A DNA stretch of 23,492 bases from a virus: positions 1 through 23,492 of the IMG/VR virus record IMGVR_UViG_3300046733_000556. One strand, written 5' to 3'. Below, piece by piece: positions 8,651 to 15,985 of the stretch. A program made the position numbers and the translations under genes. Numbering within the stretch: position 1 is the stretch's first letter; the number at the start of each line of letters is the position of its first letter. The notes below the pieces were generated by a model. The model had not been told where the DNA came from, made no database searches, and saw only the letters and a program-made list of their open reading frames with translations.

Positions 8651-8691
8651 ACCTAATGCCAATAGCTCCCGCCTGGCTTCTTACGTTAGGT
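8651..8691 (-). repeat. Interrupted inverted repeat at the 3' end of the methyltransferase gene
   Basis: ACCTAA (8651-8656) pairs with TTAGGT (8686-8691), and GCCA (8658-8661) with TGGC (8674-8677), giving a bulged hairpin that includes the methyltransferase stop codon and sits directly before the operon terminator. It has no T run of its own. It may protect the mRNA 3' end, or it may be chance. Confidence 0.4.
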
Positions 8692-9831
8692 TTTTATATA
8701 TTCTTTTCCATTTATTTTAATACTTAGTTTGGAATCTAGCTTTAACATTCTATCAATAATTACTTGGCAATACCTAGGGTCAAGTTCCATGCCGTAACAT
8801 TTCTTTTTAAGTTGATGAGCTGCTACCATACAAACTCCACTTCCTAAAAAATAATCTAATATTAAATTAGCTTCTGAATAGTACTCCTTAATACAATAAT
8901 TAACTAATTCTATTGGTTTTTGTGTTGCGTGTACTCTTTTTTCTCCTCTTTCAGAATCTTTCAACATTCCTTTCCATAAGTGCCTAAATATTCTTATTGA
9001 TTTTTTATCTGATTTTATCCAAGCTAATTCACAATCAGAATTATAATCTCTTTGATTCTCTTCAACTCTTTTGTCCCAAACTAACCAATTTGCACTTTGT
9101 GGTAATGAATGACAATAATAATTTGCTCCAAACCAAACTTGAATTTTTATATCTTGATTTATAGATTGATTGAAAGCTTCAATAGCATATTGAATTGTAT
9201 CGTCTTTAAACGATGGTAAATTATTTCCTTTAGCTAGTCCGCCTCTTTTGCTTCTATCTCCTTTTTCATTTATTCCATAAGGAGGGTCAGTCCAAACCAT
9301 ATCAGCTTTCTCTCCATTCATTAGCTTTGCCACTTGGTCTGAATCTGTACTATCTCCACACAGTAAACGATGCTCTCCTATTTCTATTAAATCACCAAGA
9401 ACAACATCTACCTTTATTTGTTCTGGTTCGGTATAATCATCTTCTTCAGCTTCAAGTTGTATTTCATCAAACTCTGGTAAATTTAAACCCCAGTCATTTA
9501 ATTCTTTTACATCCCATTCATTTGCCAATATATCCCAATCCCAATCACCAAAGCCAACATTATCTTTAATTATAAACTCTTGTTTTTGTTTTTTGGTCCA
9601 ACCAATTGCCTTATGAATATAAATCTCAAATAAACCAGCTGATTGACACGCTTTTAATCTCATATTGCCACCTAAAACAATCATTTTTTCATCAACAATA
9701 ATTGGTCGTTTTTCCAACATTTCTGGAAACTCTTTAATTGATTTAACTAATTTTTTAAATTTAGAATCAACAACATATCGAGGATTATTTTTATTTTCTT
9801 TTACAAGTTTTATATTAACTTTTTCAATCAT
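8686..9831 (-). CDS. ParB/Srx-like domain fused to a DNA N4/N6 methyltransferase
   Basis: A 381-residue protein from the ATG at 9831 (MIEKVNIKLVKENKNNPRYV). An upstream in-frame ATG at 9903 is less likely, because it would lie 80 bases inside the preceding gene and add residues outside the ParB fold. Residues 1-95 are a ParB-type domain (NPRYV, RPIIVDEKMIVLGGNMRLKA). The methyltransferase follows, with DPPY at 182-185, HATQKP at 301-306 and the AdoMet-binding DYFLGSG at 326-332. This DPPY-before-FxGxG order fits the beta group of N6-adenine/N4-cytosine enzymes. No restriction partner is adjacent, so it is probably an orphan methylase that protects phage DNA or marks a regulatory site. The target sequence cannot be read from the protein. 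Confidence 0.9.
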   Translation of the reverse strand: MIEKVNIKLVKENKNNPRYVVDSKFKKLVKSIKEFPEMLEKRPIIVDEKMIVLGGNMRLKACQSAGLFEIYIHKAIGWTKKQKQEFIIKDNVGFGDWDWDILANEWDVKELNDWGLNLPEFDEIQLEAEEDDYTEPEQIKVDVVLGDLIEIGEHRLLCGDSTDSDQVAKLMNGEKADMVWTDPPYGINEKGDRSKRGGLAKGNNLPSFKDDTIQYAIEAFNQSINQDIKIQVWFGANYYCHSLPQSANWLVWDKRVEENQRDYNSDCELAWIKSDKKSIRIFRHLWKGMLKDSERGEKRVHATQKPIELVNYCIKEYYSEANLILDYFLGSGVCMVAAHQLKKKCYGMELDPRYCQVIIDRMLKLDSKLSIKINGKEYIKT

Positions 9832-10039
9832 TTTTAGTTTTTTTATTGTACAAATATAAATACAAATCCCATATTTTATCACTTGCATATTTTTGATATG
9901 CATAAGTTTTAGGTGATCTAATTAATTGGCCATCATCATTTATTTCAACATAACATTTTTTTTTGCCTTTAATCGGAACTATATAAACTTTTATATTGTT
10001 TTCTAAACACCAGGATTGAGCTTTTAAATATTTATTCAT
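9824..10039 (-). CDS. Small protein of unknown function (71 aa)
   Basis: Starts in an ATGA overlap with the preceding MazG-like gene and ends 8 bases inside the ParB-methyltransferase gene, so it is coupled to both. The protein is basic in the middle (PIKGKKKCYVEI) and tyrosine-rich towards the end (YAYQKYASDKIWDLYLYLYN). No family is recognised. A small accessory role in the replication or modification operon is all that can be inferred. Confidence 0.6.
   Translation of the reverse strand: MNKYLKAQSWCLENNIKVYIVPIKGKKKCYVEINDDGQLIRSPKTYAYQKYASDKIWDLYLYLYNKKTKND
9850..9857 (-). promoter_or_regulatory. Possible -7 box before the methyltransferase
   Basis: TATATTTG on the minus strand lies 19 bases before the methyltransferase start, inside the end of the preceding gene, and fits TAnnTTTG. 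No -33 element is seen. Confidence 0.22.
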
Positions 10040-12652: not shown

Positions 12653-13499
12653 TGCCAATAAAATCTTTTAATACTTGAATTTCAACATTGTTCAATATTT
12701 GACTTATATTAAATTCATTAAGTTTGTTAGTTTTGGTTATTGCACCCAATCTTTTTTTGCCATCCGGATCTAAATAAATAACATATTTTTTTATGCCTTT
12801 AATTTTATAAAAGCATTTTGGTTTATTTTGCTTTTTATAATTTTCCATAAATCGATGAATAAACATAATGCCATTTTTATCATGATTTCTTAATTTTAAA
12901 AGCGTTAAAAAATTATCTTTCCAAAACTCATCATTTCTTATATGCTTAACCGATAGGTAAATATCATTCAAATCGTATTTATCAATCCTAACACATCGTT
13001 CAATACATTCAAACCATCTTTGTTTTTGAATATCAGTTTTTGGGCGATACCTTAAATCAAATAAATCAACAAAGTGAGGAAATGCTTTTTGTATTTTCTC
13101 ACTTTGGGTAATATTACTTTTATTGTTATTATTATATATATTAATATTACTTTGTGGCGGATTTTCCGACATCGGTTTTTTCCGACATCGGTTTTTCCGC
13201 TTTCGGTTAGCTTTTAAAATATAGTTGTAACCTTTAAATTTTCCTTTGTCAGTAACCTTTTGCCTTTCTAAATAACCCAAATCAATCAATTCTTTTATCT
13301 TAGCTCTAATGGCATCTTTGCCCTCTTTAAAATGACCACATATAAATTCAATTGTAATATCTTGGTCGGCTGTATGTGAAAATAAATAAGAATAAAGACC
13401 AGTGGCACCAATAGAAATGCCTTTATCCCTAAAAATATAGCTAGGAACTATATTAAAATTATCAAATTTTTTAGGTTTTAGAATCTTATTGTATTTCAT
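12642..13499 (-). CDS. Winged-helix replication initiator-like protein
   Basis: A 285-residue protein. Residues 28-97 read as a winged helix-turn-helix (GATGLYSYLF ... EFICGHFKEGKDAIRAKIKE, LGYLERQKVTDKGKFKGYNY), the arrangement of phage and plasmid initiators of the lambda O / RepA / DnaD type. Residues 97-135 are a basic, then Asn-rich linker with no stable fold. The C-terminal half is helical and basic. The gene lies with the DnaA-like protein upstream and the primase-helicase downstream. The DNA encoding the linker contains three iteron-like dyads beside an AT-rich tract, as at the lambda origin inside gene O. The initiator role is inferred from fold, context and this repeat. Confidence 0.72.
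   Translation of the reverse strand: MKYNKILKPKKFDNFNIVPSYIFRDKGISIGATGLYSYLFSHTADQDITIEFICGHFKEGKDAIRAKIKELIDLGYLERQKVTDKGKFKGYNYILKANRKRKNRCRKKPMSENPPQSNINIYNNNNKSNITQSEKIQKAFPHFVDLFDLRYRPKTDIQKQRWFECIERCVRIDKYDLNDIYLSVKHIRNDEFWKDNFLTLLKLRNHDKNGIMFIHRFMENYKKQNKPKCFYKIKGIKKYVIYLDPDGKKRLGAITKTNKLNEFNISQILNNVEIQVLKDFIGNGN
13109..13150. other. AT-rich tract next to the iterons (candidate DNA unwinding element)
   Basis: Only about three G/C bases occur in these 42 positions, which include a TATATATA core. The tract directly follows the iteron-like dyads inside the initiator gene. It encodes the Asn-rich linker, so composition is partly set by coding. Its placement matches the AT-rich region beside the lambda iterons. 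Confidence 0.4.
13162..13207 (-). repeat. Three iteron-like dyad repeats inside the initiator gene (candidate origin)
   Basis: On the minus strand ACCGATGTCGGAAAA occurs twice (cores at 13166-13175 and 13182-13191), with a diverged copy ACCGAAAGCGGAAAA (core 13197-13206). Each core is a dyad, CCGA-TG-TCGG in the exact copies. Core spacings are 16 and 15 bases, so the copies are read in different frames (NRKRK, NRCRK, KPMSEN). The DNA is repeated while the peptide is not, which points to a protein-binding site. Confidence 0.55.
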
Positions 13500-14172: not shown

Positions 14173-14619
14173 TTAATCTGTATCGGCCATAATATAAATA
14201 ATTCTTTTCATTTCTTTGCAATCCGTTAATAAATTTCTATTTTTTTTAACCAAATCATCTAAGTTTTTTTTTAAAGAATCATTTTCAAATAATAAAATAT
14301 TATAATTATTTACAAGTGTGTTAAGATCCATTTGTTCTTTATTGATTCCAAGTAACTTATCTTTTTTAATTTGTAATTCATTATATTTTCTAGCAAAATA
14401 ATGATTGCTTTTTAACATATATGGCAATCCTTTAATTGCATTAATAACTGTTGCATGAGTTCTGTCAACAGATTGTGATATATTAGCCAGTGAATTATCA
14501 GTGTGCCTTTGGCATAACTCATAATAACACGCTCTAGCAAAAACATATTTAAACAATCTTGATCGTTTATTTATATTTAAATCAAAATGTTGCTCAACTA
14601 ATTTTTTAAATTTTTCCAT
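14173..14619 (-). CDS. DnaA domain-IV-like DNA-binding protein with coiled-coil tail
   Basis: A 148-residue protein. Residues 5-66 resemble the C-terminal DNA-binding domain of DnaA: VEQHFDLNINKRSR, an ARACYYELC helix and SLANISQSVDRTHATVINAI. The segment DRTHATV (52-58) corresponds to the DnaA signature around GGRDHTTV that contacts the DnaA box. No AAA+ ATPase domain is present. Residues 95-140 are a Leu/Asn/Lys-rich probable coiled coil (LLFENDSLKKNLDDLVKKNR), which may give dimers. The start lies 2 bases after the exonuclease stop. It may bind DnaA-box-like sites at the phage origin or compete with host DnaA. The domain call is good; the role is inferred. Confidence 0.72.
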   Translation of the reverse strand: MEKFKKLVEQHFDLNINKRSRLFKYVFARACYYELCQRHTDNSLANISQSVDRTHATVINAIKGLPYMLKSNHYFARKYNELQIKKDKLLGINKEQMDLNTLVNNYNILLFENDSLKKNLDDLVKKNRNLLTDCKEMKRIIYIMADTD

Positions 14620-15890: not shown

Positions 15891-15951
15891 ATATAAATTT
15901 TAAAGTTGATTTTAAATTTAAAAAAATATTTTAAATAAATCAAATTAATTA

Positions 15952-15985
15952 TAAAAAAAAAGGCATGAAATAAATCATGCCCTTT
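15952..15985 (-). terminator. Intrinsic terminator closing the ERF/SSB operon
   Basis: A 7-bp perfect stem GGCATGA / TCATGCC (arms at 15962-15968 and 15975-15981) with a 6-base loop is followed on the minus strand by a long T run. It lies about 40 bases past the stop of the 54-residue gene. Confidence 0.9.

Follow-up and report, generated by a model that had tools for sequence, protein, structure and literature searches.

A candidate replication origin of 15- to 16-bp iterons inside the HTH_36 initiator gene of an IMG/VR phage contig

The ORF13 protein of lactococcal phage TP901-1 and the Rep2009 protein of phage Tuc2009 are reported to bind direct repeats that lie within the genes encoding them and act as ori (PMC8965321). 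The N-terminal domain (NTD) of pSK41 Rep, a winged helix, binds boxes situated mid-gene in rep; as protein, the linker is not needed, and the C-terminal domain (CTD) contacts the replication machinery and binds primase (PMC5703833). pPR9, whose NTD belongs to pfam13730, is an autonomous replicon compatible with pSK41, its NTD and origin having been swapped (PMC5703833). The oriL of Bacillus phage SPP1, located in gene 38, combines direct repeats and an AT-rich unwinding element within the gene for the origin-binding protein (PMC6316719), and in lambda, whose ori lies in gene O, iterons and an AT-rich tract likewise occupy the initiator-gene linker (PMC7466680), as they do in the locus described here.

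The stretch of DNA analyzed (the window) is a linear 23,492-base IMG/VR virus contig, an incomplete fragment that carries nearly all its genes on the minus strand and comes from a marine bacterial virus. Its 285-aa initiator shares with the TP901-1 and Tuc2009 proteins a homologous N-terminal HTH_36 winged helix (TP901-1 Rep is its tblastn homolog, with 35% over residues 2-84, E 2e-5) and the location of repeats within the cognate gene, but the C-terminal parts and the repeat sequence differ, and the window phage belongs to a marine lineage. With staphylococcal pPR9 (HTH_36) and pSK41 (RepA_N), it shares the winged-helix NTD, boxes in the linker-coding middle of the gene, and exchange of the NTD together with the origin; the RepA_N-type placement of boxes in the linker between NTD and CTD has its counterpart in iterons that start at codon 98 and disorder at residues 101-130. 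Those replicons are plasmids, however, and the window initiator has no RepA_N domain. SPP1 has the same layout of in-gene direct repeats plus an AT-rich element but also a second site, oriR, none being seen in the window fragment. Lambda has four iterons of 18 bp spaced 20-24 bp (lambda annotation), versus three at 15-16 bp in the window, and lambda O has a neighboring P-type helicase loader, whereas the window initiator is followed by a DUF5843 gene and then a primase-helicase gene. The lambda-style origin proposed in an earlier note, made from the sequence alone, is apt as an analogy, but by family the site is of the TP901-1/pPR9 type and not a lambda O origin. An in-gene origin is thus of a known kind (TP901-1 Rep); the newer part is the shared 15-bp grammar and the correspondence between recognition helix and iteron.

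The initiator and its gene neighborhood

The initiator comprises a winged helix (aa 1-95), a disordered linker (aa 101-130), and a helical CTD (aa 130-282). HTH_36 (E 8.5e-6) was the only domain found in the Pfam search, RepA_N (PF06970) being absent, and the PHROG matches (186/270/428, E 1e-11 to 1e-12) are annotated as DnaD-like loader or replication initiation. Neither a lambda O-type protein nor its P partner was recognized (O-like PHROGs were weak, best E 3e-4). A PDB sequence search with the initiator gave no convincing match, and a PDB fold search returned nothing below 1e-3, its best hits being the Geobacillus DnaB primosomal protein and small winged-helix regulators. In the AlphaFold model, pLDDT falls below 50 only at residues 101-130, which nearly coincide with codons 98-131, the location of the iterons and AT tract.

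The initiator neighbors include genes for a stand-alone DnaA domain IV, a VRR-NUC nuclease, a DUF5843 protein, and a primase-helicase, and this module is retained in nearly all longer relatives. The DnaA domain IV-only protein (148 aa, without an AAA+ domain; 14173-14619, minus strand) is encoded upstream of the initiator, as part of the same run of genes, and 51 of the 57 longer loci of relatives retain it, yet DnaA boxes in the window are below chance: TTWTNCACA occurs once in 23.5 kb versus 5.2 expected, and no cluster was found. A 405-aa gene at 8686-9903 (minus strand) looks ParB-like at its start and DNA methyltransferase-like at its end, judging by sequence; its relatives lie near the initiator in 21 of the 57 longer loci.

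Iterons and AT tract in the linker codons

Codons 98-131 of the initiator, which encode the disordered linker, contain three dyad repeats followed by a 42-base AT tract (Table 1). The dyads are CCGATGTCGG, present twice, and CCGAAAGCGG, present once, at spacings of 15 and 16 bp. Along the coding (minus) strand, the linker runs AACCGAAAGCGGAAA, AACCGATGTCGGAAAA, AACCGATGTCGGAAAA, and TCCGCCAC, then AAAGTAATATTA, the AT-rich stretch, and AAAGTAATATTA again; these flanking AAAGTAATATTA copies on both sides of the AT tract had been missed in the earlier note. On the plus strand, 13162-13177 and 13178-13193 are identical (TTTTCCGACATCGGTT) and 13193-13208 is an 81% match, with spacings of 16 and 15. 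A spacing of 15 leaves the frame unchanged (NRKRK, NRCRK) and one of 16 shifts it (KPMSEN), so the same iteron DNA is read in two frames, identical letters giving NRCRK in iteron 2 and KPMSEN in iteron 3.

Table 1. Features of the initiator gene and its candidate origin
Feature	Coordinates	Strand	Evidence
Initiator (replisome organizer) gene, 285 aa	12642..13499	-	HTH_36, PHROG, AlphaFold model
Codons 60-73, recognition-helix start; residues 60-62 are G-K-D	13281..13322	-	Helix 61-73 in model; iteron-class association
Iteron 1, AACCGAAAGCGGAAAA, imperfect	13193..13208	-	81% match to reference copy
Iteron 2, AACCGATGTCGGAAAA, dyad CCGATGTCGG	13178..13193	-	Repeat analysis
Iteron 3, AACCGATGTCGGAAAA, frame differs from iteron 2	13162..13177	-	Repeat analysis
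Half-iteron end TCCGCCAC, joins array to AT tract	13154..13161	-	SENPPQ codons: near-complete synonymous conservation
First AAAGTAATATTA flank of AT tract	13142..13153	-	CAAAGTAAT in 81/81 family members
AT-rich tract, 42 nt, 3 G/C, candidate DNA unwinding element	13112..13153	-	Composition, synonymous conservation
Second AAAGTAATATTA flank of AT tract	13109..13120	-	Direct repeat; at least 2 AGTAAT in 76/81 family linkers

The array is the top-scoring tandem repeat of the window (score 70), and CCGANNTCGG with up to one mismatch has no other occurrence there. When the same peptide was recoded by window codon usage, none of 20,000 versions reached the repeat score (for the dyads, P = 1e-4). 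The iteron block is 45% G/C, versus 25-31% in the surrounding 500-bp blocks. The composition of the AT tract is ordinary, as 202 contig windows of 42 nt are at least as G/C-poor and the stretch at 15909-15958 is poorer; the tract is notable for its position and conservation rather than its composition. That emptier stretch, considered as an origin, was rejected, having no direct repeats.

The three 15- to 16-bp dyads of the earlier note are thus real repeats, with the qualification that the first copy is imperfect, and they are read in different frames as it stated, although in two rather than three. Its view that the repeat is conserved as DNA agrees with the recoding result and with synonymous conservation that peaks at the linker (see below); likewise, the position of repeats and tract between the winged-helix and C-terminal domains is matched by disorder in the model, and the G/C-rich dyads do stand out from their surroundings. 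The nearly G/C-free 42-base tract is present, but its composition is not unusual in the contig.

Linker arrays and recognition helices in related initiators

The family of the window initiator, compiled from two scans of IMG/VR and one of genomes, consists of 81 distinct intact genes of about 50-100% identity; the only genome match of the (marine) window-phage lineage is a Flavobacteriaceae MAG. The CAAAGTAAT motif at the start of the AT tract and the tract itself are kept in 81/81, and the repeats upstream of CAAAGTAAT vary (CCGATGTCGG, CCGAAGTCGG, CCGTACACGG, CCGAAACCCC, CCTTAATGTAG, CAGAAATCTG, and CCAGCGCTGG). Of the 60 distinct family linkers, 46 have significant repeats, with a pitch of 15-16 bp in 45 and of 13 bp in the remaining one; most of the 14 that failed the test have one good dyad, the others being degenerate. 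Where the amino acid is common, the same codon is used at a frequency of 0.93-1.00 over aa 110-123, versus 0.53-0.67 expected. Synonymous conservation over the AT tract ranks 1-14 of 294 windows, mostly at aa 110-123, and is the peak of the gene; the most conserved synonymous stretch is the AT tract with its AAAGTAAT flanks. Local homogenization by recombination could add to the codon conservation at aa 110-123, yet that conservation adjoins different iterons. The CCGAAACCCC class (L070, L072, L064, and relatives) keeps the 15-bp pitch and A-tract and lacks dyad symmetry; its sites look head-to-tail and go with an S-K-G helix start, so binding as a dimer cannot be universal.

The 15-base spacing rule recurs, in other letters, in hundreds of related virus genes. 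A protein-similarity search also found 15-bp linker arrays in distant phage initiators, including those of Firmicutes, Bacteroidetes, Actinobacteria, and Vibrio phages; linker repeats were significant in 69 of 70 distinct initiators chosen in this way, with a period of 15 in 49, 16 in 11, and 30 in 7. The earlier note had pointed to homologous genes as a check, and what they carry is linker repeats of the same pitch, often of other sequence, so that its proviso about homologs with no repeats does not refute the reading. A DNA-only scan of IMG/VR with the pattern CGGAAAANCCGN4CGGAAAANCCG matched at least 120 loci. Among the matches listed, 110 of 120 fall inside winged-helix initiator ORFs, the arrays typically lying 0-28 codons past the winged-helix domain, in frame 1 at 83 loci, in frame 2 at 20, and on the opposite strand at 7; frame 0 is represented in the window family. 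Frame 1 also yields an EKP/ENP peptide, so that DNA can be told apart from peptide only by the other readings. A changed pattern with a GGC core and the same layout gave 3 loci in IMG/VR, none in winged-helix ORFs, and a 16-bp version of the pattern gave 2. Complementarity between the inner bases of CCGnnnnCGG exceeds that in shuffles (0.407 versus 0.324, P 0.004; 0.433 versus 0.310, P 0.0002), these P values being optimistic because the arrays are related.

For the other 10 of the 120 loci, again among the matches listed, no winged-helix ORF was detected around the array. Of those inspected, L186 is truncated where its contig ends, and L167 encodes a proline-rich repeat protein; L139 (at ~11910) and L183 (at ~4679, minus strand) are apparently broken winged-helix initiators with intact iteron arrays. 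The marine flavobacterial Cellulophaga phage phi18:3 (L122, 721-1581) has a different initiator, with an 11-bp tandem array in the linker instead of a 15-bp one. A 16-bp periodicity is seen in L264, L266, L267, L307, L312, and L318, most of which have a G-R-E helix start, with CCGTCGGACGGG-type sites in the last three. In L151, L180, L187, L199, TP901-1, and others, a CTACTAAATACTAATA-like motif stands just past the array, where the window family has CAAAGTAATATTA; it is possibly a shared element for unwinding or single-strand recognition.

Among 47 family representatives, iteron similarity tracks the identity of the N domain when the C domain is controlled (partial r 0.54, 0/500 permutations) and does not track the C domain when the N domain is controlled (0.02, P 0.38). 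At residues 60-62 of these representatives, G-[KR]-D pairs with CCGANNTCGG (G60 and D62 in 23/23), S-K-G with CCGAAACCCC (9/9), and N-x-[ST] with CCTTAAT (5/5). When all sets are taken together and clustered by identity at 70%, 51 of 70 CGG arrays have [KR]D at 61-62, versus 4 of 19 other arrays (Fisher 9e-5). Leaving out the pattern-selected set gives the same, weaker trend (5/8 versus 4/19, P 0.07), and clustering at 85% without that set gives 11/15 versus 6/29 (P 0.001); the relatives compared are not independent, kinship being handled by identity clustering alone (70% and 85%). Bacillus-type relatives combine GRD with CGG (5), G[IL]D with TGG (19), and GKD with TGG (2). Exceptions include GRD with TGG arrays (L039 and LL-H) and GKD with TGG (L342 and L343), so the relation is a correspondence and not a strict code; a simple rule that D62 means CGG was dropped as weaker than [KR]D together and not absolute.

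Over codons 1-140, the DNA of L010 is 93-100% identical to that of the window; over codons 141-260 it instead matches L020, at 98-100% identity. By this comparison, L010 is a natural chimera, with a window-like N domain and origin, an L020-like C domain, and a junction just past the AT tract. The winged helix and the candidate origin travel together while the C domain is exchanged, as reported for pPR9.

Candidate origin function and its alternatives

Given the precedents of TP901-1/Tuc2009, pSK41, SPP1, and lambda and the homology to TP901-1 Rep, the window site is read as a phage origin. It is very probable that the linker site serves as the replication origin inside the initiator gene, with iterons bound by the winged helix and melting at the AT tract. 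If the initiator instead used these in-gene sites as an operator to block its own transcription, with the origin elsewhere, binding there would account equally well for the conservation of the sites and for their covariation with the winged helix. We consider this unlikely, as it leaves unexplained both the AT tract with its AAAGTAAT flanks as the most conserved synonymous stretch and the mid-gene sites in nearly every homolog; in addition, neither a second iteron array nor a DnaA-box cluster was seen in the window (the contig being a fragment), and the in-gene repeats of TP901-1 serve as ori. Autoregulation may still take place alongside origin function. GC skew, which the earlier note had listed as a check, is monotonic in the window and in four longer relatives and equal on both sides of the site; with co-oriented genes sharing one strand, it is uninformative.

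The dyads were also considered as hairpins of mRNA or single-stranded DNA, and the window stretch does fold far better than shuffles (z -6.2 over 108 nt and z -4.1 over 67 nt). However, tandem palindromes fold by construction, and three of the six iteron classes of the family fold no better than shuffles (z +0.65, +1.2, and +0.98), so a hairpin is not conserved; there is no Rfam match at the gathering score, and the single sub-threshold one is taken as chance. A hairpin function is accordingly highly improbable. There is also very little chance that the repeats are coding matter, an ENPxT-like repetitive linker peptide that arose by tandem duplication and has no function as DNA: most of the distant arrays do use one frame and encode EKP/ENP repeats, but the same DNA is read as NRCRKNR, KPMSENP, and GKTGAGKT, synonymous sites are frozen, and the recoded peptide loses the repeat.

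For the site as an origin, the following mechanism can be proposed. Each CC-N6-GG dyad would be bound by the N-terminal winged helix, probably as a dimer, with residues 60-62, at the N-terminal end of the recognition helix, reading the CGG half-sites. Three occupied sites, at a pitch of 15-16 bp with A-tracts, would assemble into a nucleoprotein complex able to melt the 42-base AT tract next to them, and the CTD would bring in the replicative helicase, its likely client being the primase-helicase encoded 0.5 kb downstream. The iterons would double as codons of a flexible linker tolerating almost any peptide.

A tentative generalization, which we rate as slightly short of probable, is that HTH_36 phage initiators across several phyla share one origin grammar: CC-N6-GG dyads plus an A-tract at a 15- to 16-bp pitch, placed in linker codons in any frame, with an AT tract after them. 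The half-site would be set by the start of the recognition helix, at its N-terminus ([KR]D for CGG, [IL]D for TGG, SKG for CCC, and N-x-[ST] for TAG or CAG), replication specificity would be predictable from the protein alone, and the winged helix plus origin would form one mobile cassette moving between phages. No statement of the 15-bp grammar or of the helix correspondence was found in the open-access literature searched, and priority is not claimed.

The natural covariation of three helix residues with the half-site offers a ready test of how specificity changes when the site lies inside the initiator's own coding sequence, the pairing of protein and DNA site being readable from sequence and testable. 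Most uncultured phages lack a known origin; should the 15-bp grammar prove correct, origins could be located from sequence alone in a large class of phage genomes, and phages could be sorted by the origins that their initiators should recognize.
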